A DNA stretch of 64,000 nucleotides from Chloroflexota bacterium (GTDB lineage: Bacteria > Chloroflexota > Anaerolineae > DUEN01). The stretch lies in assembly GCA_013152435.1 (NCBI GenBank), contig JAADGJ010000076.1:62001-126000 (forward strand), read 5' to 3'. The translations under genes and the position numbers were made by a program. Under the pieces are notes generated by a model. It saw only the letters and a list, made by a program, of their open reading frames with translations. It made no database searches and was not told the DNA's origin. Position 1 is the stretch's first letter; each line of letters starts with the position of its first letter. Below are positions 13,884 to 39,362 of this stretch, piece after piece.

Positions 13884-14010
13884 TCACCTTCCTTGTTGTC
13901 CCGAGCCAGTGAGCGAATACAGGAACTCCTTCAGCACCCTGTTGAACGCTGTAGGTTCTTCCATGTTTGCGAAATGCCCAGCTTTTGGCAGCTCCACGAG
14001 CTGGGAGCCG
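13884..14010 (-). pseudogene. 3' remnant of an alpha/beta-hydrolase gene
   Basis: About 42 codons remain, reading LVELPKAGHFANMEEP and then FNRVLKEFL before a TGA. This is the standard end of alpha/beta-hydrolase-fold enzymes, with the catalytic His in GHFANMEEP. Upstream, the frame runs into a fragment of the 240-bp repeat element, so the rest of the gene is gone. The TGA overlaps GTGACC ahead of the SDR start, so the hydrolase was once the preceding gene of that operon. Confidence 0.7.
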
Positions 14011-14030
14011 GCTTCCCCCGCAACGCCGCC

Positions 14031-14092
14031 AGCCCCCTCCACACCTCCCCCTGTGGAGCTCGTCATTGAGGGAGACCCCTCAGGCACGCTCT
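14031..14092 (+). repeat. Truncated MITE fragment (copy 3)
   Basis: CCCCCTCCACACCTCCCCC, followed by TGTGGAGCTCGTCATTGAG and GGAGACCCCTCAG, matches the last quarter of the full-length element. The terminal repeat itself has decayed to GGCACGCTC. It abuts the broken hydrolase gene. Confidence 0.7.
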
Positions 14093-14121
14093 TACGAGGG
14101 GCTTGGGATCGTTTCGGCAAA

Positions 14122-18947: not shown

Positions 18948-19052
18948 TTAGCAACTCCCTCTGGAGGAGAGGCCAGGGTGAACGGAGCTGCGCTGAGGAC
19001 AGGGCCAGCCAACCCATCCAATCTCCCAAACGATCCCTCTCCCTCTGATCCG

Positions 19053-19238
19053 TCAGGTCAGTATCCAGATAGCGACGATGATGCCCATCAGGCCGAGGAT
19101 GGCCCATGTCCATTGGGCCGACAGCCGCTGGCGATCGCCCTCCGCTCGCCGGGCCAGCCGCTCTCGCTCCGCCTCACGCACGTCCTCCTCGATGCGTCTC
19201 CGGGCTAGCTGTTGAGCCAGAAAGGGATTGAATAGCAT
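19053..19238 (-). CDS. Small tail-anchored membrane protein
   Basis: The product has 61 residues: a highly charged amphipathic helix (residues 8-40) followed by one C-terminal membrane segment (AILGLMGIIVAIWILT). The ATG is preceded by GGAGG at eight bases, which supports it as a real gene. No family is known to me. It lies downstream of the receiver gene at 19299 on the same strand. Confidence 0.55.
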   Translation of the reverse strand: MLFNPFLAQQLARRRIEEDVREAERERLARRAEGDRQRLSAQWTWAILGLMGIIVAIWILT

Positions 19239-19263
19239 CTCGATTCCTCCATTAGCGAAGTGA

Positions 19264-19292
19264 TGGCGGACGACAGACGACAGGCGACGGAT
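19264..19292 (+). repeat. GACGAC-type degenerate repeat, copy A
   Basis: TGGCGGACGACAGACGACAG followed by GCGACGGATG matches the tracts at 21494-21563 and 22019-22072. It sits just after the stop of the receiver gene. Confidence 0.6.
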
Positions 19293-19298
19293 GCGATC

Positions 19299-19802
19299 TC
19301 AGAGTGGGCTATCGTGCGCCGCCTGCCGTCCATGACCTGTTGCCTCCCCGAGCACCACCGCCAGCAGGCGTTCGGGTGGGTCCCCTTTGCTGACGAAGGC
19401 ATCGGCTCCGGCCGCCAAAGCGGCTTTGCGCGCCTCCGGCCGCCCGCTGAGAGCGATGATCCACAGGCGAGGGTGGCAGGAACGCAAGATCGATAGCAAC
19501 TCGGCGGCGGGCGCTCCGGGGAGCTCCCAATCCAGCAGGATCAGATCGGGGTGGATGGCTTCCACCATGGCCTGTAGCTCTCCGGCATTGGCCGCCTCGC
19601 CTACCACGCTCAACCCGGATTGCAGTTCCAGCAACAGCCTCAGCGCCGAGCGCACCTTCGCCTGGTCATCGGCGATCAAAACGCGAATTCCCTCTGCCCG
19701 ATCTGTGGTGATCTCCGTCCTCCTGGGCCGGGGTATTCCCGCCGTACCGGGCGGGTTTCGCTTTCTAGTGTAAGGGGGAAATGGCTCGGAGGCGCCGGGC
19801 AT
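19299..19802 (-). CDS. Stand-alone response-regulator receiver protein
   Basis: The receiver domain is clear: RVLIADDQAKVRS with the acidic pair, LILLDWELPG with the phosphorylated Asp, ALSGRPEARKAAL with a Ser at the switch position, and FVSKGDPPE with the conserved Lys. No output domain follows, so it may act on a partner protein. The true start is unclear: the first ATG (19802) adds about 39 unlikely residues, and the only AGGAGG (19719-19724) precedes an ATC codon at 19712. No kinase gene is adjacent. Confidence 0.72.
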   Translation of the reverse strand: MPGASEPFPPYTRKRNPPGTAGIPRPRRTEITTDRAEGIRVLIADDQAKVRSALRLLLELQSGLSVVGEAANAGELQAMVEAIHPDLILLDWELPGAPAAELLSILRSCHPRLWIIALSGRPEARKAALAAGADAFVSKGDPPERLLAVVLGEATGHGRQAAHDSPL

Positions 19803-19892
19803 TCAGATGGTTCCGCATCTGGACGGATGTCCGGCCCTCACCCTGGTCAGGTGGCTAGGTGGGAAGATGCGGATTGTCGCGGGACCGTTCCG

Positions 19893-20789
19893 TCATCCGT
19901 CGGTGGGGCGTGAGGGTGGGAGAGGGCGGTGAGGATAGATCGGTAGCTCGACCACCAGTAGGGCCGTCAGGATCAGCCCGCGGCCGGTCACTCCCCAGCT
20001 CGTCAGCCGCTCGCCCAGGAAGAGGAAGGCGGTGAGGGTGGCGAAGACGGGCTCCATCGTCAGTAGAAGGGCCGCCTGCTGGGGCGGTGTGCGCTGCTGC
20101 GCGATCACCTGGAGCGGGAGGGCTAGCGCCGTGGCCGGCAGGGCGGTGAACAGGATGGCTCGCCAGATCGTGGTGGAAGTGGGGTTGGGAAACGGCTCAG
20201 TCGACAGGGCGATCAGTCCGCTGAGCAGCGCCATCGCTCCAATCTGGGCCGTGCCCAAGGCTAGGGGATCGTGATGGCGGACGTGACGATCTACCAGGAG
20301 GATATGAACGGCCACCGTCAGCGCGCAGAGCAACATCAACCCATCGCCTGGGGTCCAGGAGCCGCCCATAGGTCGCGAGAGCAAAGCCAGCCCGAGTACG
20401 GCCAGGAGCGCGGCGATCCAGATACGGGGAGAGAGCGGTCGACGCAGGATCAGCGCCGAGAGCAGTGGGACCAGGACGACGAACAAGCTGGTGAGGAAGC
20501 CCGCCCGGGTGGCCGTGGTCGTGCGCAGGCCAACGGTCTGCAGGCCGTAGGCTGCGAAGAGGACGGCCCCCAGAGCGCTGCCTGCTTGCCACAGGGCGCG
20601 GCCTCCCCGCCGCAGACGAGCGTGAAGGGGCAGGGCCAACACGGCGAAGGCCAGCGAGAAGCGCATGGCCAGGAAGGAAAAGGGCCCGCTCTCCTTCAGA
20701 GCGGTTTTGACGAAGACAAAGGTGGCTCCCCAGACGAGGGCCACCGTCAACAACATCAGGCTGGGGATCAGGGTATGGCGGCGGAACAT
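19893..20789 (-). CDS. EamA/DMT-family transporter
   Basis: The product has 298 residues with ten hydrophobic segments arranged as two EamA repeats. LTVALVWGATFVFVKTAL near residue 12 and PVFATLTAFLFLGERLTSWG near residue 250 are the family's typical helix 1 and late-repeat motifs. Members export amino acids, nucleosides or other metabolites with proton exchange; the substrate cannot be told. The start at 20789 (MFRRHTL) is picked because earlier codons overlap the upstream response regulator. No clear SD is visible. Confidence 0.85.
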   Translation of the reverse strand: MFRRHTLIPSLMLLTVALVWGATFVFVKTALKESGPFSFLAMRFSLAFAVLALPLHARLRRGGRALWQAGSALGAVLFAAYGLQTVGLRTTTATRAGFLTSLFVVLVPLLSALILRRPLSPRIWIAALLAVLGLALLSRPMGGSWTPGDGLMLLCALTVAVHILLVDRHVRHHDPLALGTAQIGAMALLSGLIALSTEPFPNPTSTTIWRAILFTALPATALALPLQVIAQQRTPPQQAALLLTMEPVFATLTAFLFLGERLTSWGVTGRGLILTALLVVELPIYPHRPLPPSRPTDG

Positions 20790-20856
20790 GGCGATCGTCG
20801 GGTGGCCGGCCGGGCGGGTTGCCCTAGTCCGCTGTGTCCGTATCGACGAGGCGGTG

Positions 20857-21480
20857 TTAAACGGCCAGGGCGACCGCCTCCGTGCGGCTCTCGACACCCA
20901 GCTTGGACAGGATGTTGCTGACGTGGAACTTCACCGTGGATCGGCTGACCGTCAGCCGTTGCGCGATCTGAGGATTGCTCAGCCCCTCGACCATCAAGGC
21001 CAGCACCTCCCGCTCCCGAGGGGTCAGGTCGAACCCCGGGGTGGGCGGCTGAGTGGCCACATGGATCAGGGCCTGCGCGGCCTCGGGCGCCAGGGTCGGG
21101 CGTCCGGCGTAGGCCGAGCGGATGGCCTGGGCCAACTCGTCGGCCGAGACGTTTTTCAGCAGGTAGCCGATGGCCCCCGCCCGGAGCGCCCCCTGCACCA
21201 GCTCCTCCTCTCGGAAGCTGGTCAGGGCGATGATCCGCACGTTCGGGTAGCGCTCTCGGATAGCCTGGATGGCCGCCACGCCGTCCATCCCCGGCATCAC
21301 CAGGTCCATCAGCACCACGTCGGGCCGGACCTGTCCGCACAAGACCAGGGCCTTCTCCCCGCTGTCGGCCTCGCCGACCATCTCCAGGTCGTCGAAGGCC
21401 ATCAGGAAGGCCGCCAATCCGCTGCGCACGACGGCATGATCGTCTACGAGCATCACGCGAATGGGGGTAGGTTGGGTCAT
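20857..21480 (-). CDS. NarL/LuxR-type response regulator
   Basis: The product has 207 residues. The receiver domain shows [12 protein letters not shown], the phosphorylated Asp in [12 protein letters not shown] near residue 57, ALTSFREEE and [10 protein letters not shown]. The LuxR helix-turn-helix covers about residues 145-205, with [20 protein letters not shown] and [14 protein letters not shown]. The start at 21480 follows AAGGAG; further upstream lies repeat DNA. It is the natural partner of the HisKA_3 kinase encoded 557 bases upstream on the same strand, with the four-helix-bundle gene between them. Confidence 0.9.
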
Positions 21481-21493
21481 GGTGGCTCCTTGG

Positions 21494-21563
21494 CGACGAA
21501 TAATAGGCGATGGATGATAGACGACTGACGATGGACGGTAGACGACTGGCGATGGTCGTCCGC
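21494..21563 (+). repeat. GACGAC-type degenerate repeat, copy B
   Basis: Units such as GATGATAGACGACTGACGAT and GGACGGTAGACGACTGGCG repeat over about 70 bases between the four-helix-bundle gene and the LuxR regulator gene. Copy C lies on the other side of the bundle gene in the opposite orientation. Confidence 0.7.
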
Positions 21564-21586
21564 CTGCCCTGTTCGTAGATGATGCC

Positions 21587-21991
21587 TTATTCCGCTTCGT
21601 ATGCCGCGGTTTCCTCACGTAGCCATGGCTTGTGAGGTGCGATCGAGTTCCGCAGCGCCTGCAGTTTCACCGCCAGCGTCTCGGCGTGACGGTAAGCTTC
21701 ACGTAGAAGTGTTTGTTCCTGGAAATACTGGCGGCGGTGAATGATGTGCTGGCAGGCCACCGTCTCCAGTGAGGAACGAATGGCTAGGCCCAGGAAACGG
21801 GCTTGTTCCGCGTTGGTCTGTCCTGTGGACCCCTCGGCTATGTTGAGTGCTACAGATGTTGCCGCCCGGATCATCTGTGTCTTGAGGTTGTATTCTTCGA
21901 CCCGCGGCAGTTGGCCGGCGATCTCGTAGATCAGATCGATATAGTCCAGAGACAGTCGCCATACTTCGAGTTTCTCGAATTTGAAGGCCAT
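21587..21991 (-). CDS. Four-helix bundle protein (23S rRNA intervening-sequence protein family)
   Basis: The product has 134 residues. [20 protein letters not shown] at the start, [13 protein letters not shown] near residue 44 and the ExxxxL-rich third helix are the features of the S23/bIVP family, related to the Avd accessory protein of diversity-generating retroelements. The family forms pentameric barrels that can bind nucleic acid; its cellular role is unknown. The gene splits a kinase-regulator pair and is flanked by inverted copies of the GACGAC repeat, so it appears to be a mobile passenger. No reverse transcriptase is visible. Confidence 0.85.
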
Positions 21992-22018
21992 CCTGGTTCT
22001 CTCTCTCTTCTTCCTCGG

Positions 22019-22072
22019 ACGCCAGGCGATAGACGATCAATCATCTGTGATCCGTCGTCTGTCGTCTCTCTC
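22019..22072 (-). repeat. GACGAC-type degenerate repeat, copy C
   Basis: On the minus strand it reads AGACGACAGACGACGGATCA followed by CAGATGATTGATCGTCTATC. It is inverted relative to copy B, and its 5' part supplies the last codons and stop of the histidine kinase gene. Confidence 0.68.
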
Positions 22073-24682
22073 CCATACGACCGCCACTTCTGTGCCGCGC
22101 CCGATCTTGCTCTTCACCTCCAGCCTGGCCCCGATCGCCTCTGCCCGCTCGCGCATGATGCTCAGCCCCAGATGGTCCGGGGCGGTTTCTCCCACGTGGA
22201 AGCCCCGGCCGTCATCTCGGACGCTCAGCTTCACCTGCCCCGGTGAGCAGCGCAGGGCCACCTCCGCCCGGCTGGCGTCGGCGTGCTTCGCCACGTTGTT
22301 CAGCGCCTCCTGGGCGATGCGATACAGGGCGACCTGCACATCGGGTGGCAGGGTGCATGCCCCGTCGATCGCCACGGAGACCGGCACCCGTGCCCGGCCG
22401 GTGGTGGCCTCCGCGAGCTGGCGTAGCAGATCTCCCAGGTTCGCCTCGATCACGGCCGCCGGGCGTAGCTCCAACAACAGCGTGCGCATTTCGGCCAGCG
22501 CGCCGCGAGTCAGCTGGCGCAGCTCTTCCAGTCGCCGTCGCCCCTCTTCCGGATCTCGCTGCCACAGACGGGGCAGCACCTCGGCGATCAGGCCGGCGGA
22601 GAAGAGGGTCTGGGTGACGGCGTCGTGCAGCTCCCTGGCCAGGCGATTGCGTTCGGCGGCCGCGGCGGCCCGCTCCGTCTGCTCGTAAAGCCGGGCGTTT
22701 TCCACGGCGACCCCAAGTTGATCGGCGATGGATTCGAAGAGGGCCAGTTGCCTCTCGTTGAACGTGCTGCCCTTTGGGCCGATGATCGCCAGCACTCCCA
22801 GGGCTTGTCCGCGGGCGCGAAGCGGCAGCAGCGCGCCGGGCTCGGCATAGCCCAGCTCCGCATTCGGCGGCACGTAGAGTGGCTTCCCCTCGGCGATGAC
22901 CCTCTGACACGCCTGGATCACCTCTGCCATGTCCTCCGGCGCGATGGGCCGGTCCGGCCGGAGCATTCGCGGCTCCAGCTCGCCCGATTCTCGATCGAGC
23001 AGCACCACGCCGGCCCGCGAGGCTCCGACCAGGGCCACCAGGCGATCCAGCGTGTTGCTCAGCATCTCATCCAGCTCCAACGAACTGCTGGCCGCCGCAG
23101 CCACATCAAGCAACATCTGGAGCTCGCGCTGTCGCTCCTGCTCCGTTTGATAGAGGCGCGCGTTCTCGATGGCAACGGCGACCTGGTTGGCAAACGTCAG
23201 AACCAGTTCTGCGTGTTGGGGGGTGAAGACGCCCGGCCTCTCGTGGTCGAGGGTCAACATGCCGATGACCCGTTCCTTCACGATCAGGGGGACGCCCAAC
23301 CAGGAGCGGATGTAGCCAAAGGTGGTCTTCAGGCGTCCGCCGGCCGTCGCCCGAAGGGCCCGGGCCAGGGGCGTGTCCCCCCAGATGTCGTCGATCAGCA
23401 CTGGCTCCTCGCGAAGGACAACCTCACGATTCGCCCGCGCTTCGTCAAGGGGGAAGGAGATCTGCAACGCCTCCTCCTGGGAGAGAGGGCCCCGATACGC
23501 AATGACTTTTAAAGTATCGCCGTCCAGAGTCATGATGGAGGCCCCGCTGTACTCCACCACGGCCCTGAGTTGATCAAGCACCAGGCCCAGTAGAGGCTCC
23601 AGCTCGAGGGTGGAGGCCATGTCGCGGGAGATCTGCAGGAGTGTGGACAGCTCCCGGGTTCGCTCCGCTACCCGCTGTTCCAGAAGCTGCTGGCTCTCCT
23701 GCAGCGCTGCGATCGTTTGTTGTAGCTCCTGGTTGGCCAACACCCGTTCCGTGGCATCGGTGGTCACATCCACGAAGCCGATCACCGCCCCGTCCTCGAT
23801 CAGGGGAGTGAAGACCACGTCCCAGTAGGAGACGATTCCCCCGCTCTCAAGGCGTAGGGCGTCCAGGCGCACCGTCTCGCCAGCCAGGACCCGCTGGAAG
23901 ATGGGCATGGCGGCGTCTTCGGTGCCGGGGGCCAGGTCGAAGAAATGCGTGCCCGGCACCACGTGGCTGGCCCTCGACGGGGTATAGCGATCGATGAATC
24001 CGACCCAGGTGGGATTGCAGCGGCGCAGCCGCAGGTCTCGGTCGAAGATGGCGATGCCCATGGGCATACGGTCGAAGAGGATCTCCAGCAGATTGAGCTG
24101 GCGGTCCAGTATCGGGTCTGGGGCCAGGGTGACGGCGGGGGTGTCACCGGCGGCCTCAGCGGATAGCAACTCGAAGACGCAGACGTCCGCCCCCTGAGCC
24201 TGGCAGGCGTGCTCCACGCAGACCACATCCTGGCGCCCGGCGATCACGTTGACGAACCCGACCAGGACGCCGGCCGAGTAGGCACAGACGGGAGACTCGC
24301 TCTTCCCTCCGTGTCGGCGCACCATCCAGGCCTCGAAGGTGTCCTGGGCACGGATGACAACGCGCCCGATGGGCCACTTGAGGACCTCCACCTCGAAGCG
24401 GCCAAAGCCAGCGGCCTGATACGCGGCTATACAATCACGCAACGCCCGTCGTCCGTCTTCTCCCGCCCGTCGCCCAATAAAGGAGCGGGCGAAGGAGGCT
24501 CCACCGTGCGCTCCGGCCTGCTGCAGCACGGCGTCGGTCAGCCGCCGGCCGACCAGCGACTCCATCTGACGGCGCAGCCCCCAGAAGCCGGCCTCGATAT
24601 CCAGCAGGGCCATGCGGGCGCCGCCGAAGTAGAGCATGCCGCGGTGGCGTTCATCGGCTGTGAGGAGATCACGGTATGTCAT
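22037..24682 (-). CDS. V4R-PAS-GAF-GAF sensor histidine kinase (NarX/HisKA_3 type)
   Basis: The product has 881 residues and no membrane segment, so it is cytoplasmic. Residues 100-190 look like a V4R domain (CAYSAGVLVGFVNVIAG, then EHACQAQGADVCVFEL). A PAS domain follows near 205-315 (GIAIFDRDLRLRRCNP), then a coiled coil and two GAF domains near 345-500 and 520-665. HisKA_3 has the phospho-His in ARELHDAVTQTLF near residue 680, and the ATPase has EALNNVAKHA and DDGRGF. It should phosphorylate the LuxR regulator at 20857-21480. The last residues after VVWER are read from a repeat. Confidence 0.92.
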   Translation of the reverse strand: MTYRDLLTADERHRGMLYFGGARMALLDIEAGFWGLRRQMESLVGRRLTDAVLQQAGAHGGASFARSFIGRRAGEDGRRALRDCIAAYQAAGFGRFEVEVLKWPIGRVVIRAQDTFEAWMVRRHGGKSESPVCAYSAGVLVGFVNVIAGRQDVVCVEHACQAQGADVCVFELLSAEAAGDTPAVTLAPDPILDRQLNLLEILFDRMPMGIAIFDRDLRLRRCNPTWVGFIDRYTPSRASHVVPGTHFFDLAPGTEDAAMPIFQRVLAGETVRLDALRLESGGIVSYWDVVFTPLIEDGAVIGFVDVTTDATERVLANQELQQTIAALQESQQLLEQRVAERTRELSTLLQISRDMASTLELEPLLGLVLDQLRAVVEYSGASIMTLDGDTLKVIAYRGPLSQEEALQISFPLDEARANREVVLREEPVLIDDIWGDTPLARALRATAGGRLKTTFGYIRSWLGVPLIVKERVIGMLTLDHERPGVFTPQHAELVLTFANQVAVAIENARLYQTEQERQRELQMLLDVAAAASSSLELDEMLSNTLDRLVALVGASRAGVVLLDRESGELEPRMLRPDRPIAPEDMAEVIQACQRVIAEGKPLYVPPNAELGYAEPGALLPLRARGQALGVLAIIGPKGSTFNERQLALFESIADQLGVAVENARLYEQTERAAAAAERNRLARELHDAVTQTLFSAGLIAEVLPRLWQRDPEEGRRRLEELRQLTRGALAEMRTLLLELRPAAVIEANLGDLLRQLAEATTGRARVPVSVAIDGACTLPPDVQVALYRIAQEALNNVAKHADASRAEVALRCSPGQVKLSVRDDGRGFHVGETAPDHLGLSIMRERAEAIGARLEVKSKIGRGTEVAVVWERDDRRRITDD

Positions 24683-24895: not shown

Positions 24896-25135
24896 AGCGT
24901 GTCTGAGAAATGCTGTTGCCTCTGCTGGGGGGAGCCCCTCCGGAAAAAGCCCTTCTTTTGCCCTCGATCTGCCTGGCCTCGGCCTGGGTTCCGCGAAAAG
25001 GGCCGAGAGAGGCAGGTACAGGCCGAAAAAGTGGGATTTCCGTGGAGGGGAGGCCCCCTCCACACCTCCCCCTGTGGAGCTGGTCGTTGAGGGAGACTCC
25101 GCAGAACATCTTGCCGGTAAATTTTCAGACGCGCT
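24896..25135 (+). mobile_element. 240-bp MITE-like element, copy 4
   Basis: The ends are AGCGTGTCTG and CAGACGCGCT, in the same orientation and at the same 240-bp length as copy 1. The flanks CTCAG (24891-24895) and CTCAA (25136-25140) differ at one base and look like a target duplication. It separates the kinase promoter from the flagellar locus. Confidence 0.82.
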
Positions 25136-26598: not shown

Positions 26599-27039
26599 AT
26601 GGGGGCCTTCACAGCGTTACGAATCAGCTCGTCGGCCCTGACGGCCGAGCGGCTGCGCATGGACGTGATCGCGAACAACATCGCGAACCAGCAGACCACC
26701 CGCACGCCAGAGGGAGGGCCATACCGCCGGCGGGTGGTGGTCTTTACCCCTTTGGAAGCCCGGAAGCCATTCGGGCGGGCTAAGGAGGTGAACCGGGGGC
26801 TTCCCTCCCGCCTGGGCGTCCGGGTGGCGGCGATCCTGGAGGATCCCCGGCCGGGTGTCAAGGTGTACGATCCCGATCATCCCGACGCGGACCCGGACGG
26901 TTACGTCACCTATCCTAACGTCGACATCGTGTCCGAGATGGTGGACATGATGGCGGCCGCGCGGGCCTATGAGGCCAATGTGATCGCCGCGCAGACCGCC
27001 AAGAGCATGGCGCTGAAGGCCCTGGAGATCGGTCGTTAA
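26599..27039 (+). CDS. flgC: Flagellar proximal rod protein FlgC
   Basis: The product has 146 residues, the usual FlgC length. The N-terminal rod signature is MDVIANNIANQQTT with an SSALTAERLR lead-in, and the C-terminal rod helix is SEMVDMMAAARAYEANV. FlgC builds the proximal rod that joins the MS ring to the distal rod. GGAGGAGGG precedes the start. Unusually its normal neighbour flgB is not directly upstream but lies about 6.7 kb downstream. Confidence 0.93.
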   Translation: MGAFTALRISSSALTAERLRMDVIANNIANQQTTRTPEGGPYRRRVVVFTPLEARKPFGRAKEVNRGLPSRLGVRVAAILEDPRPGVKVYDPDHPDADPDGYVTYPNVDIVSEMVDMMAAARAYEANVIAAQTAKSMALKALEIGR

Positions 27040-27052
27040 GGAGGAGTGAGCG

Positions 27053-27373
27053 ATGGCGATCGATCCGACGATGCGAGTGGGGACGGCCTTTCCTCTATCC
27101 ATTGAGCGCCTGCCGGGGCGGACGGGTCAGAACGAGGGCGCGTCCGCGAGGAACGCCTCCTTCGGTGAGCTGGTGCAGGACGCGCTGGAGCAGCTCAACC
27201 GGCTGCAGCAGGAGGCGGACGACGCGGCCACTCGGCTGGCCATCGGCGAGCCGGTGGACCTGCACGACGTCATGATCGCCGTGCAGAAGGCGGATCTGGG
27301 ATTTCAGCTCGCCTTACAGGTGCGCAACAAGCTGATTGAGGCCTATCAAGAGATCATGCGGATGCAGGTCTAG
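27053..27373 (+). CDS. fliE: Flagellar hook-basal body complex protein FliE
   Basis: The product has 106 residues. FGELVQDALEQLNRLQQEAD near residue 36 and VDLHDVMIAVQKADLGFQLA near residue 70 are the conserved FliE helices, ending with RNKLIEAYQEIMRM. FliE connects the MS ring with the rod. It starts 13 bases after flgC behind TAAGGAGGAG, and fliF follows 14 bases later. Confidence 0.93.
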   Translation: MAIDPTMRVGTAFPLSIERLPGRTGQNEGASARNASFGELVQDALEQLNRLQQEADDAATRLAIGEPVDLHDVMIAVQKADLGFQLALQVRNKLIEAYQEIMRMQV

Positions 27374-27387
27374 CGAGGTTCGGCTCC

Positions 27388-29085
27388 ATGGACTCGATAC
27401 GGCAGCAGGCTCTGGAATGGTGGCAGAATCTGGCACGCTGGCAGCAGATCACGGCCATTGGGATCGGGGTCGTGGGCCTGGCCCTGGCCCTCTATCTCCT
27501 GGCCGTGGCTCAGGCGCCGGAGTATGCCGTCGCGTTTAGCGGGCTGACGGAGCAGGACGCTGCGGAGATCGTAGACGTGCTGAAGAAGATGAACGTGCCC
27601 TACCGGCTGGCGGGGGATGGCACCGTGATCCAGGTCCCCGCACGCCAGGTGCGTGAGATCCGGTTGGAGCTGGCCCGCCAGGGATTGCCCAAGGGGGGAA
27701 CGGTCGGATTCGAGATCTTTGACACCGGCGAGTTGGGCAATCTGGGGATGACGGATTTCGTGCAGAAGGTGAACTACCAGCGTGCCCTGGAAGGCGAGCT
27801 GGCCCGAACCATCGAGAGCCTGGAGCCGTTGCAGGCTGCCCGGGTTCACATCGTCATCCCGGAGCCGAGCCTGTTCCTGGAGGAGGAGACGAAGCCCAGC
27901 GCCTCCGTGTTGGTCCAGCTGAAGCCGGGACGGCGGCTGGAGCCGGGACAGATCGAGGCGATCACCCATCTGGTGGCCAGCAGCGTGGAGGATCTGGACC
28001 CGGAGCGCGTCACGGTCGTGGACGTGGAGGGCAACGTCCTGCATCGCGAGACGACGGAGTCCGGCGCGCCCGATACGGCGCAGCTCAACGCGATGCGGAT
28101 CGAGCTGCAGCGCAAGTACGAGATGGAAACCCAGGATCGGCTGCAGAGCCTGCTGGATAGGACGCTGGGCCCGGGGCGATCGGCCGTTCAGGTCAGCGTG
28201 GCGATGGATTGGGATCGGTTGGAGACCAGCAGTGAGACGTACAGCCCGGGGAGTGCAGAGGCGGGCGTGCTCAGAAGCTCCCGTATCGTCGAAGAGTACC
28301 AGCCCTCGCCGGAGGAGGGGGTGGGCGGCGTGCCCGGCATCGACAGCAACCAATTGGAGGTCCCGACCTACCAGGGCGTGGTGACCAGCACCACCGAGGG
28401 TGGATACGTGCGCCGGGAGGCCGTGTACAACTACGAGGTCTCCAAGACCGTCCAGAACCTGATCCGGGAGCCGGGGCGAATCAAGCGGCTGTCGGTGGCC
28501 GTGCTCCTTGATGAGAGCATACCGGAAGATGAGCGTAAGGACATCGAGCAGTTGGTGGCGGCCGCCGTTGGGCTGGATCCCTCTCGGGGGGATACGCTGG
28601 CCGTCACCGCCGTGGCGTTCAACCAGGATTATTACGACCAGCAGCAGGAGGCCCTGTTGGCCGCTCAGCGGCACGAGCTGTACATCACCGTCGCCAAGGT
28701 GTTGTCCTCGATCATTGGGCTCATCCTGTTGCTGTTCTTCGTGCGCAGCCTGTTCCGTGACCTGGCGTACCGGCGCCTGTATCCGCAGATGGAATTGATC
28801 CCGCCCACTGGCCCGGTCCCGGTCGCGGCGTTGGAGGCGGCGACCGGCCAGTTGCCCGTCGAGCAGTCGACGTCCGCTCTGGAGGCGGGAGGGACGCTGG
28901 CATCCGATCAGGAGGAACAGGAGGAAGCGGCGCCTGGTGACGAGATAAAGGACGAGGTGGACATCGCCGCCCTGTCCCCGCCCACGAACAAGGAACTGCG
29001 TTATCTGCGGCACCTCACCGCGATGGCCAGGGATAACCCCGACGTCGTGGCGGATGTCATTCGGACATGGTTGAGGGAGGGATAG
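27388..29085 (+). CDS. fliF: Flagellar MS-ring protein FliF
   Basis: The product has 565 residues, a standard length. There are two membrane segments, near 21-43 and near 432-454, with ring-building modules between them. YAVAFSGLTEQDAAEIV near residue 48 and LARQGLPKGGTVGFEIFD near residue 93 are family motifs, and VSKTVQN lies near residue 350. The last residues (MARDNPDVVADVIRTWL) form the FliG-binding tail. FliF forms the ring in the cytoplasmic membrane on which motor and export gate assemble. One base separates it from fliG. Confidence 0.94.
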   Translation: MDSIRQQALEWWQNLARWQQITAIGIGVVGLALALYLLAVAQAPEYAVAFSGLTEQDAAEIVDVLKKMNVPYRLAGDGTVIQVPARQVREIRLELARQGLPKGGTVGFEIFDTGELGNLGMTDFVQKVNYQRALEGELARTIESLEPLQAARVHIVIPEPSLFLEEETKPSASVLVQLKPGRRLEPGQIEAITHLVASSVEDLDPERVTVVDVEGNVLHRETTESGAPDTAQLNAMRIELQRKYEMETQDRLQSLLDRTLGPGRSAVQVSVAMDWDRLETSSETYSPGSAEAGVLRSSRIVEEYQPSPEEGVGGVPGIDSNQLEVPTYQGVVTSTTEGGYVRREAVYNYEVSKTVQNLIREPGRIKRLSVAVLLDESIPEDERKDIEQLVAAAVGLDPSRGDTLAVTAVAFNQDYYDQQQEALLAAQRHELYITVAKVLSSIIGLILLLFFVRSLFRDLAYRRLYPQMELIPPTGPVPVAALEAATGQLPVEQSTSALEAGGTLASDQEEQEEAAPGDEIKDEVDIAALSPPTNKELRYLRHLTAMARDNPDVVADVIRTWLREG

Positions 29086-29086
29086 C

Positions 29087-30115
29087 ATGGCAGCGAGGGA
29101 TGCATCCGCAGCCCGTCTGGATGGGGTGACCAAGGCGGCGGTTTTGCTGATCAGCCTGGGGACGGACCTCTCCGCGGCGGTGCTCCGCCGGCTCGGCGAA
29201 TCCGATGTCGAGCGGTTGACCATGACGATCATGGAGCTCCGGAACGTGGATCCGGACGTCCGATCGAAGGTGCTGGAGGAGGCCTACGAGGACGTTCAGA
29301 CCGCTCAGCTTCCGGACTCCGGCGGCATCAGCTATGTGAAAGCTCTGCTGGAGCGCGCGCTGGGGCCTCAGAAGGCGGAGGAGGTGATCCAGCGGCTGGC
29401 CGCCGAACAGCGGGAGAGGCCCTTCAGCTTCCTGGTGGACGCTGACCCGGTGCAGGTGGCGAACTTCCTGAAGGATGAGCATCCACAGGTGGTCGCCGTG
29501 GTGTTGGCGCATCTGCGCCCGGCGCAATCCGCCAAGATCCTGGCCAACCTGGAGCCCACGCTCCAGACGGATGTGTGTGCCCGCATCGCGGTGATGGACC
29601 GTGCGTCGCCACATGTGCTGCGCGAGGTGGAGCAGCAGCTTCGGAAGAAGCTGGCCACCGTCCTCCTGCGTACCGATGGGGCGTCCGCGGTGGGCGGCGT
29701 GGAGTTCCTGGCGAACGTGTTGAACCAGGTGGACCGGAGCACGGAGAAGCAGATCATGCAGGCGCTGGCGGAGTACGATCCGCAGCTGCACGAGTTGGTC
29801 CAGTCCAAGATGTTCGTGTTCGAAGATCTGCGCCTGCTGGACGACCGCTCGCTGCAGCGTGTGCTGCAGGAGGTGGATCGGCAGGACCTGCTTCTGGCGC
29901 TCCGGGGGGCCAGCGAGGAGATTCGGGAGCTGGTGTACCGCAACCTCTCCAAGCGCGCTGCTCAGCTGTTGAAGGAGGACCTGGCGACCATGGGGCCTGT
30001 CCGCCTGCGCAACGTGGAGGAGGCCCAGCAGCGGATCGTGAACATCGTCCGGCAGCTGGAGGCGGCCGAGGAGATCGTCGTTGCCCGGGGTGGCGAGGAG
30101 GATGTCCTTGTCTAG
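29087..30115 (+). CDS. fliG: Flagellar motor switch protein FliG
   Basis: The product has 342 residues. KAAVLLISLGTDLSAAVLRR near residue 10 is the FliF-binding domain, KDEHPQVVAVVLAHLRP near residue 128 contains the EHPQ motif, and the charged torque helix DDRSLQRVLQEVDRQDLLLA is near residue 255. FliG sits on the MS ring, transmits stator torque and sets rotation sense with FliM and FliN, which are not in this window. GGGAGGG precedes the start. FliH overlaps its end. Confidence 0.95.
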   Translation: MAARDASAARLDGVTKAAVLLISLGTDLSAAVLRRLGESDVERLTMTIMELRNVDPDVRSKVLEEAYEDVQTAQLPDSGGISYVKALLERALGPQKAEEVIQRLAAEQRERPFSFLVDADPVQVANFLKDEHPQVVAVVLAHLRPAQSAKILANLEPTLQTDVCARIAVMDRASPHVLREVEQQLRKKLATVLLRTDGASAVGGVEFLANVLNQVDRSTEKQIMQALAEYDPQLHELVQSKMFVFEDLRLLDDRSLQRVLQEVDRQDLLLALRGASEEIRELVYRNLSKRAAQLLKEDLATMGPVRLRNVEEAQQRIVNIVRQLEAAEEIVVARGGEEDVLV

Positions 30116-37292: not shown

Positions 37293-39362
37293 GTGCAAGT
37301 CAGTGATCTGAACATCTTTTCCCTGATCCAGCCGGCCATGGGAGAGGCCCTCATTGGCGCCGAGGCCTCCATGACGGCCGCGTCGGCCACCGTGGGCGAT
37401 TTCCGCCCCATGCTGTGGGCTTTGTTCGCGGCCGCCGGGGATGGCCCGGGCCAGGGCGACGATGCGGCCGCCATGGCGCCGGGGGAGGACATGGCGCAGG
37501 ACGCCCGTCCTGAACGATCGATCGGGCGGAAGGAGGTGGTGCCTGCAGGCGATCTGGCGCTGTCCTGCGTGGGGGTCAGTGTGTTCCCCCCAAGTGTCCA
37601 ACCGGAGCTGGTGAGCGGTGGGCCCGTCGCGTCGGCCTTCCATGCGTCGGAGGCTGGGGTGGAGGGCGTGGAGGCGCTGGCGGATGTCCTCCAGGCGGGG
37701 GGACGTGGCCCGCATCCGGGGGCGGGCAAGGTCGCACCCCGGGCGTGGCCTGACGGCCTATCCGCCCAGACCGTGTCCCCTCCGGAGGGGGAGACGACCT
37801 GGATGGGAGCGCCGTTCGTGGCGTCCACTCCGAGTATGTCGCCCGTAGGCGTGGAGGGAAAGCCGGAGGAAGCCTCCCAGGCCCTACCGCAAGGGCAGCT
37901 GGGTGGACAGGAGGGCATCCGAGAGGGTGTCGTCCAGCCCTCTGTCGCCCCATCGATGACGCTCGCGGCCGAGCCGAGCTCCGCTCTGGAGGCGCCGATG
38001 TCGGAGATGCCGAAGGGGGCGCAGCTGCCCGAGGGATCTCAGGGCGTCATCTCTGGCGGCTCCGATGGCTCACCGGGGACAGGCCGGAAGTCTGGTGCCT
38101 CGAAGCCGGTGGGGCGGCCATCCATCTGGGCGGATCCTGTCGTGTCATCGCCGGGACGTACGGAGGGCTCGGCTGCCCAGTCCTCGGGTGAGGAGCCATC
38201 GATGGGAGTGGAGTCGGGACGCCTCCCAAGTGTGAGGGACGCGATCGGGATGCGGGTGCCCCGATGGAGAAGGACGCTCCTGGCGGGGCGGAACATCCCA
38301 CCCGTCGGGAGGCCCGAGATGGAGTCCGGCCCCGCTCGTGTGGACGTCCCCGACGCGGGGAAGCCGATGCGAGAAGAAAAGCCGTCTGGAGTGGAGGCCG
38401 TTGGGCTTCCCCGGACGGAGGCGGCGCGGCCCTCTGGGGCAAGCGTTCCGCCGGTGGTCGGTGATGGGACGGGGGAGCCGGCGCGGCCGGTCTCTTCCGG
38501 ACGTGTGACAGCGCCTGTTCGGGGGGAGACCCCAGTGGTCCCGGACGCGGCGAAGACGTCCCCTCCGGTGGGCGTCGGGGGGCGAGATCCCAGGGATGTG
38601 CCATCACCCGCTGCGCGGGCGGATGTCGGGCTCGACTCCATGGGAGATCGGGGGATAGCGGCCCAACGCGGGCACGTGAACAGCACCCTGATGAATCCTC
38701 GCCCGGCTGAGATCCCGGCGGCTGTCGAGGCCGGACGTGATCCGGGGATGGCTTACTCCCGTCCCGGAGGTGAGCGTCGCGAGCCGGGAGCCCGGCAGGC
38801 CCCAGGCCCCGCATCCGTCTCGTGGGCGGAGGCGGCGCCCATTCCGGGGGCGAAGAACCCGGTTGCCAGATCCGCTGAGGTCGGGGCCGGGCTCGTGAGC
38901 TCCGATGGGCGAGAGTTCAACATCGCGGACACGCTGGAGGAACTGGTGGGCCAGATCCGGGTGGCCTGGCGGCGTGGCGAGTCGGAGTGCCGGCTGCAGC
39001 TTCATCCGGAGCAGCTGGGCCGCCTGGAGGTGCGTCTGGTGTCTGGTCGCAATGGGATGACCCTGCTCATGCGGACGGAGACGGCCGAGGCGCAGGCGGT
39101 CATCCAGTCGAACCTGGATCGTCTGCGCACAGGGCTGGAGGGGCACGGCATCCACCTGGAGCGGTGTGAGGTCGTGGCCGGCCAGATGGACGCCGGGGGC
39201 GCGAGCTGGCAGAACGGCGGCGGGCAGGGGCCCTTGTGGGACCAGCCTGAGCTGCCGGGGTATGTCCCAGCGGCGTACACACGCCCCACCACCGAACGCA
39301 TCACCGGGGCGCGTCGGCCGGCATATCGGCGTCCTGATGCGCTGATCGATCTGGAGGTCTAG
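37293..39362 (+). CDS. fliK: Flagellar hook-length control protein FliK
   Basis: The product has 689 residues, longer than the usual 350-500. The first 540 residues are a low-complexity Pro/Gly/Ala/Val-rich ruler. The conserved Flg_hook domain lies near 545-640, with CRLQLHPEQLGRLEVRL and LDRLRTGLEGHGIHL. FliK measures the hook and switches export to filament subunits. The start is GTG at 37293 behind AAAGGAGGTGATT, a nearly perfect anti-SD match. FlgD follows after 11 bases. Confidence 0.86.
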   Translation: MQVSDLNIFSLIQPAMGEALIGAEASMTAASATVGDFRPMLWALFAAAGDGPGQGDDAAAMAPGEDMAQDARPERSIGRKEVVPAGDLALSCVGVSVFPPSVQPELVSGGPVASAFHASEAGVEGVEALADVLQAGGRGPHPGAGKVAPRAWPDGLSAQTVSPPEGETTWMGAPFVASTPSMSPVGVEGKPEEASQALPQGQLGGQEGIREGVVQPSVAPSMTLAAEPSSALEAPMSEMPKGAQLPEGSQGVISGGSDGSPGTGRKSGASKPVGRPSIWADPVVSSPGRTEGSAAQSSGEEPSMGVESGRLPSVRDAIGMRVPRWRRTLLAGRNIPPVGRPEMESGPARVDVPDAGKPMREEKPSGVEAVGLPRTEAARPSGASVPPVVGDGTGEPARPVSSGRVTAPVRGETPVVPDAAKTSPPVGVGGRDPRDVPSPAARADVGLDSMGDRGIAAQRGHVNSTLMNPRPAEIPAAVEAGRDPGMAYSRPGGERREPGARQAPGPASVSWAEAAPIPGAKNPVARSAEVGAGLVSSDGREFNIADTLEELVGQIRVAWRRGESECRLQLHPEQLGRLEVRLVSGRNGMTLLMRTETAEAQAVIQSNLDRLRTGLEGHGIHLERCEVVAGQMDAGGASWQNGGGQGPLWDQPELPGYVPAAYTRPTTERITGARRPAYRRPDALIDLEV

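Follow-up and report, generated by a model that had tools for sequence, protein, structure and literature searches.

A gene for a four-helix-bundle protein of the bIVP type, set between two arrays of a degenerate heptamer that run in opposite directions, parts a sensor histidine kinase from its response regulator in the genome of a Chloroflexota bacterium. I propose that gene and arrays together probably make up a compact element without a transposase, a member of a bIVP-heptad family, that was inserted between the two genes, and that its protein would bind the arrays while the host does the copying. What can be seen directly is a unit that recurs with inverted ends and with an arm word particular to each locus, at sites that are empty in one genome and filled in another, along with hairpins that have the arrays and no bIVP gene, and dispersed orphan arrays, many of them bearing the words of resident genes. 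A mobile element without a transposase is a plausible reading, and the architecture points to a widespread, little-noticed kind.

The element between kinase and regulator

The features of the window (the whole stretch of 64,000 nucleotides that was analysed) are given in Table 1, together with those of a DGR elsewhere in the same genome. The three genes of interest lie on the same strand, and the kinase reading frame ends within the upstream array. A preliminary description had placed a bIVP-type gene between kinase and regulator, and profile searches agree, both in the domains of the neighbors and in the protein itself, which matches PF05635 at 84.9 bits (cut-off 33.8) and TIGR02436 at 83.2 bits (cut-off 24). 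PF05635 is its sole Pfam match in that search, which gave no match to bAvd. An overlapping reading frame at 21699-22040 matches no Pfam family, and a profile scan of these two frames, covering one strand of the unit, found no enzyme.

The AlphaFold model of the protein (mean pLDDT 91.1) resembles the S23 protein XCC0516 (2gsc), with TM scores of 0.92-0.95 by target length, and the Avd protein of a DGR (4dwl), with 0.84-0.85 by target length; chains from a DGR ribonucleoprotein match as well. Crystal entries 2gsc and 2rld contain five chains apiece, and I take these proteins and Avd to be pentamers.

The element is about 580 nt long: array, gene of 134 codons, array. Its repeats had been described as GACGAC, present on both sides in opposite orientation and in a third copy near 19264-19292. 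The repeats, their orientation and the third copy all stand, but the exact word does not; GACGAC approximates a degenerate heptamer closer to GACGAYN. Scanned at lag 7, the 64 kb has five sites with at least 21 matches in 35 positions (2425, 19262, 21503, 22029 and 38769), three of them the arrays described earlier and the last one GC-rich. The segment 19269-19293 of the orphan array, which shares the word of the bIVP flanks, is 80% complementary to 22042-22066, while the copies at 19271, 21494, 21508 and 21529 are direct copies of one another. The left and right arrays are therefore mutually inverted, and the two arms match at 28 of 39 positions. There is no long direct repeat in 19000-24500, where the longest family reported is 30 nt and 73% identical.

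Elsewhere in the window, two similar intergenic stretches, at about 14010-14100 and 25040-25110 (..STPPPVELVIEGD.. and ..STPPPVELVVEGD..), suggest from their letters another dispersed repeat, and the run of genes at 26599-30115 is by eye flagellar (FlgC, FliE, FliF, FliG).

Table 1. Positions of the element, its neighbors and related features (window coordinates unless contig C72 is named)
Feature	Position	Strand	Remarks
bIVP gene (locus L003)	21587..21991	-	134 aa ORF; four-helix-bundle protein
Upstream heptamer array, 5' of bIVP	22017..22072	-	lag-7 score 23/35
Downstream heptamer array, 3' of bIVP	21494..21562	-	lag-7 score 24/35; TRF period 7 and 21; inverted relative to upstream array
Orphan array with bIVP-flank word	19262..19303	.	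lag-7 score 21/35
Orphan array with word of L004 (resident bIVP, contig C111)	2392..2475	.	lag-7 score 28/35
Sensor histidine kinase	22037..24682	-	GAF, HisKA_3, HATPase_c; parted from partner by the element
Response regulator, partner of kinase	20857..21480	-	Response_reg and GerE
DGR reverse transcriptase	C72 7512-8564		RVT_1 57.1 bits
DGR template-like copy	C72 8861-8988		A-rich
DGR Avd	C72 9038-9469		bAvd 66.7 bits
DGR variable copies (two)	C72 4649-4776 and 9501-9628		at gene ends

The genome has five PF05635 matches. A check proposed earlier was whether the same repeats flank other bIVP genes of the genome. Inverted heptamer flanks do occur at four of the five, but each has its own word, approximately GGTTAGC (L001), GCGAGTA (L002), GACGAYN (L003) and GCGTATT (L004), and the idea of one repeat common to every bIVP is rejected in favor of locus-specific words. 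The fifth, L005, is rejected as an element: it is a weak PF05635 match and proves to be the DGR Avd, with a lag-7 stretch of 23/35 on a single side and no inverted array pair at its locus. The DGR itself (L046) occupies 4000-12709 of contig C72, where the genome's sole RVT_1 match adjoins the Avd gene, and the genes that bear its variable copies are by eye large ATPases with sulfatase-modifying-factor-like ends. The L001 element adjoins a cas1 gene (Cas_Cas1, 255.2 bits).

Inverted arrays throughout the family

The array-bIVP-array architecture is real and family-wide. Scanning named genomes yielded 80 bIVP loci that, to judge by record titles, represent over a dozen phyla and include one archaeal bin. 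Among 160 flanks of up to 400 nt, at least 24 of 35 positions match at lag 7 in 56, at lag 8 in 7 and at lag 14 in 23; the corresponding numbers for 145 distant flanks are 1, 0 and 2. For 154 distinct bIVPs, a set from which 7 duplicates and 5 ORFs that were broken or short had been removed, period 7 fits best in 122 loci and period 8 in 26. A period with a clear lead is 7 in 100 loci, 8 in 16 and 9 in 1, with none clear in 37. Of 138 controls taken 800 nt away, 1 has a clear period of 7, none of 8, and 4 have other periods. Phages gave a single bIVP match, a weak one (E 9e-5).

The arms are also alike in the orientation expected from the window. A score of at least 14 between upstream arm and reverse-complemented downstream arm is reached by 95 of 151 loci but by only 1 of the 138 controls; in direct orientation 20 of the 151 reach it. 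In an earlier set, the arm's own partner did better than all 25 mismatched partners in 66 of 112 loci, and the proper downstream arm ranks first in 57 of 129 and within the top 5% in 92. Loci with short flanks were left out of these three tests. The arm scores are ungapped and the best register was chosen, so it is the mismatched, shifted and distant controls that carry weight. ORF starts were set by script, many of the genomes are fragmentary bins, and the loci are not all independent. Polarity is fixed: on the sense strand of 85 loci, G exceeds C in the upstream arm in 69 and falls below it in 13, and C exceeds G in the downstream arm in 69 as against 11.

Empty and filled sites

The preliminary description read the layout as a small mobile unit, gene and repeats together, and called for comparison with strains in which kinase and regulator are adjacent. 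Five such relatives exist (L141, L143, L144, L145 and L149), their matched parts overlapping or lying no more than about 25 nt apart, with no bIVP between them. In another relative, L146, the kinase identity is only about 40%, and the two genes have between them a decayed relic resembling bIVP. The L002 element sits within an ORF for an Eco57I-type methylase (65.9 bits), which remains open across it: the stretch between conserved blocks is 176 residues long with the element and 9, 12, 12, 13, 33 and 38 in six relatives.

Two spacers permit comparison across whole genera. All 20 Capnocytophaga genomes searched have site L106, a spacer that parts the flavoprotein gene of succinate dehydrogenase/fumarate reductase from the iron-sulphur gene. 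It is empty in eight and holds a bIVP in another eight, of which six show it by a single unbroken match and the other two are G087 and G072. G082 also has a bIVP there, its contigs split at the site, and was left out of the alignment. Of the remaining three, G074 has two inverted arrays without a bIVP, while there is a relic in G075 and a different insert in G085. Between the filled site of G076 (523 nt from stop to start) and the empty one of G081 (15 nt), the flanks are 98.2% and 92.8% identical, the junctions too blurred to define a target-site duplication. At this one site C. felis has the word TATAGCG, two species have GGCAATA and a further one GTCGTTA; left and right arrays change together, and bIVP identity across the three word classes is 47-72%.

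In Flavobacterium, the spacer between the genes for 3-hydroxyacyl-CoA dehydrogenase and thiolase (site L105) matches by at least one flank in at least 120 of 121 genomes. Twenty regions, hand-picked among the matches listed rather than drawn at random, comprise five empty spacers, eleven heptamer hairpins without a bIVP (93-106 nt, with 3-6 units on the left and 4-5 on the right) and four other inserts: a palindrome in G469 and G502, an AT-rich palindrome in G517 and a Y1_Tnp gene in G546. The Y1_Tnp gene (L352) has its own repeats, and the palindrome of G469 (L351) and G502 (L354) is a different, G/C-rich one. The spacer looks tolerant of insertion, since Y1_Tnp gene and other palindrome land there too. 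Ten filled Flavobacterium loci were compared for word and bIVP class: the word TTGTATA goes with class MNYFKEL.. in three loci and TATTAAG with class MH[QN]FEKL.. in six, while L327, which also has TATTAAG, yielded no intact bIVP by the motif used. The patterns in both genera could in part represent old insertions decaying in place.

The adjacent genes in relatives, the insert in the methylase, and the spacers found both empty and filled are together strong evidence, at the level of sequence comparison, that array, bIVP gene and array constitute an inserted unit, and the reading as a small mobile unit is supported to that extent. Copies of an element on two plasmids of Calothrix brevissima were considered as a case of recent movement and rejected: the neighboring genes are shared as well, so the copies do not represent independent movement.

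Words, orphan arrays and protein kinship

The orphan arrays of the window's genome, 21 in the 967 kb covered, were scored at a threshold of 22, with the bIVP flanks and the L046 DGR stretch left out and the sub-threshold array at 19262 added by hand. Thirteen of the 21 match the word of a resident bIVP (p<0.05 against random foreign quartets), or 12 of 20 without the 19262 array, and eight match no resident word; in a joint test 1 of 2000 foreign quartets did as well. The 19262 array finds its best match in the resident L003 (17, as against 15 for the best of 95 foreign bIVP flanks). The array at 2392-2475 scores 30 with the flanks of L004, a value reached by 0 of 1000 random foreign quartets; its word is that of the bIVP on C111, not that of the window's bIVP.

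Complete counts over 60 genomes show a similar association. Among genomes with an L004-like bIVP (E<=1e-15), 14 of 18 contain three units of ACGCAAY, the L004 word, as do 10 of the 42 others; at 12 matches or more, a threshold chosen afterwards, the counts are 11 of 18 and 1 of 42. Three units of CGTGAAR, the word of G031's bIVP, occur by hand count in 14 of 18 and 9 of 42. Matches to CGTGAAR are most numerous (210) in G053, which lacks an L004-like bIVP at E<=1e-15, with G031 second (168). The arrays of G053 are long, perfect runs of CGTGAAA, one of about 17 units, though no L004-like bIVP was found there. Reversed-pattern controls give zero in nearly all 60 genomes, the exceptions being G049 (16) and G058 (2) in one scan and single matches in four genomes in the other.

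Periods 7 and 8 cluster on the protein tree, requiring 11 steps where shuffles average 15.3 with a minimum of 12 in 1000, and similarity of words rises with identity of proteins (rho 0.19; maximum of 300 permutations 0.057). However, the rapid change of word at one site, with bIVPs that remain homologous, sits poorly with strict recognition of a word.

How the element might spread

I propose that the bIVP protein would bind its cognate array with one subunit per 7-nt step, bringing array-bearing DNA to a step of host replication, repair or nicking, and that this host step would copy the DNA into new spacers. Arrays lacking a bIVP gene could travel in trans, much as RAYT carries REPs, and the 23S rRNA intervening sequence would be a case in which the element came to lie in rRNA. 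Binding and movement are what I infer here, no copy having been seen in motion in the genomes compared. The division of labor between a protein that binds and a host enzyme that moves the DNA is suggested by the negative tests for an RNA stem and by the lack of RVT_1 matches in genomes rich in bIVPs.

The arms might instead act in the transcript, pairing with one another around the bIVP ORF as a loop, so that RNase III excises the intervening sequence, and the arrays would persist because the stem protects the operon. Coxiella offers a precedent: the 23S intervening sequence described in part of PMC4990558 has a 28-bp stem around an S23p ORF, is excised by RNase III and carries GACAGAT heptamers before the ORF. 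The window element, too, folds somewhat better on the sense strand than chance would have it (z -2.33, 2 of 100 shuffles equally good; antisense z -1.42), and in 9 of 111 loci the arms are clearly nearer each other than their own shifted copies. But there is no excess of G-U on the sense strand, where arm mismatches at 64 loci comprise 80 G-U and 109 A-C (246 and 290 in shifted register), and the arm-arm score is not above the self-shift score overall (p 0.95, n 55); L063, whose flanks overlap at a contig edge, was left out of both tests. The arms have a word in common and generally not an exact register. Since the register is inexact, G-U is not in excess and the fold is modest, recognition of the array as DNA is favored over a selected RNA stem, which is rejected as a conserved property; action in the transcript is unlikely, though well short of negligible. 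It is decidedly improbable that bIVP is a stationary regulator, binding arrays near its own gene and elsewhere and controlling expression without movement. The fixed polarity of the arms would suit such a role, and published excerpts propose similar ones, global-regulator sites for the octamer and heptamer arrays of Geobacter metallireducens, some of them paired (PMC2700814), and translational sites for TAACTGA heptamers (PMC4679880). A regulator that stays in place does not lead one to expect the L002 insertion inside methylase coding sequence, nor a single spacer found empty, filled or occupied by a hairpin, nor words that differ between related species at the same site.

Given its likeness to Avd and to chains of DGR ribonucleoproteins, one might suppose that bIVP marks a retroelement mobilized by a reverse transcriptase in trans, and RVT_1 matches do occur in 13 of the 28 genomes searched. 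They do not occur in G001, G063, G066 and G067, which have 4, 4, 8 and 17 bIVPs (some of these being incomplete bins), nor in the filled Capnocytophaga G070, G072 and G084, and the one reverse transcriptase of the window's genome belongs to a DGR with no inverted pair of arrays at its Avd. A reverse transcriptase in the same genome is thus not supported as a requirement, with up to 17 bIVPs in a genome that gave no RVT_1 match, and I consider a retroelement very improbable indeed. There is practically nothing to be said for low-complexity sequence that happens to lie beside a common gene. Single arrays of 21-23/35 do arise at random in GC-rich DNA, as at 38769, but repeats scattered without regard to bIVP genes, the outcome that would have undone the preliminary description, are excluded by the controls: 100 of 154 loci against 1 of 138 for period 7, 95 of 151 against 1 of 138 for inverted arms, and the reversed patterns with their near-uniform zeros.

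To return to an element moved by host enzymes, the link between bIVP and heptamers names a definite candidate for a repeat-binding protein, one open to a simple binding assay. Intervening sequences need then no longer be thought of as confined to rRNA, and one must ask how DNA can spread when the unit has no transposase of its own. If the proposal is true, bIVP-heptad elements are a possible source of unexplained seven-letter repeats in bacteria. At its widest, it would make of them a phylum-spanning class of mobile elements without any known recombinase, in which bIVP recognizes and moves a fast-changing heptamer array with or without the gene, a major source of over-represented bacterial heptamer repeats with the rRNA intervening sequences as one branch. 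This tempts me, with my judgement leaning slightly against it.

Comparison with known systems

Small cyanobacterial repeats have reportedly been studied by Elhai and co-workers, and PMC4692102 cites Mrazek on over-represented heptamers. Published heptamer repeats include GGGAATC of Xanthomonas and GGGGAYT of Nostoc (PMC4692102), TAACTGA of Beggiatoaceae and others (PMC4679880) and the heptamer and octamer arrays of Geobacter (PMC2700814). As these sources describe them in part, they are like the arrays considered here: dispersed, 7 nt in period, partly paired and inverted, mostly intergenic and without assigned function. The portions consulted of the three papers state no tie to bIVP genes. 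An excerpt of PMC4692102 has heptamers over-represented in several bacterial groups without accepted cause and generally not associated with mobile elements, while one from the TAACTGA paper of 2015 called for a repeat-binding protein, perhaps itself the mobile element (PMC4679880). A search of the open-licence PMC literature found no paper tying bIVP genes outside rRNA to heptamer arrays. Xanthomonas XCC0516 has no close match among 369 genomes from the class of G065, the best identity being 58%.

The DGR Avd has its fold in common with bIVP, and an excerpt of PMC10053308 gives PF05635 and Avd as homologous. The window bIVP has arrays beside it in place of RT, TR or VR; the TR/VR-like copies of the genome are on C72. 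The RAYT-REP/REPIN system is alike in having a small gene within its own inverted repeats and gene-less copies of the flanking repeats dispersed in the genome, to which the orphan arrays of the window's genome correspond. It differs in its tyrosine transposase, for which the bIVP element has no counterpart, and in its ends; those of the bIVP element are arrays of a degenerate heptamer whose word changes fast. The Flavobacterium spacer of G546 holds a Y1_Tnp (IS200-like) gene instead, at 88.3 bits.

Closest in layout is the 23S rRNA intervening sequence of Coxiella and Leptospira, where, in the text available from PMC4990558, an S23p/bIVP ORF lies between complementary ends, tandem heptamers whose number varies by strain stand just upstream of it, and the role of the protein is described as unclear. 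The window element, by contrast, lies outside rRNA, between kinase and regulator genes; L003 and seven other bIVP loci match nothing in Rfam at gathering score. The bIVP elements at large are found in operon spacers or within a coding gene, with arrays on both sides and orphan arrays dispersed through the genome.
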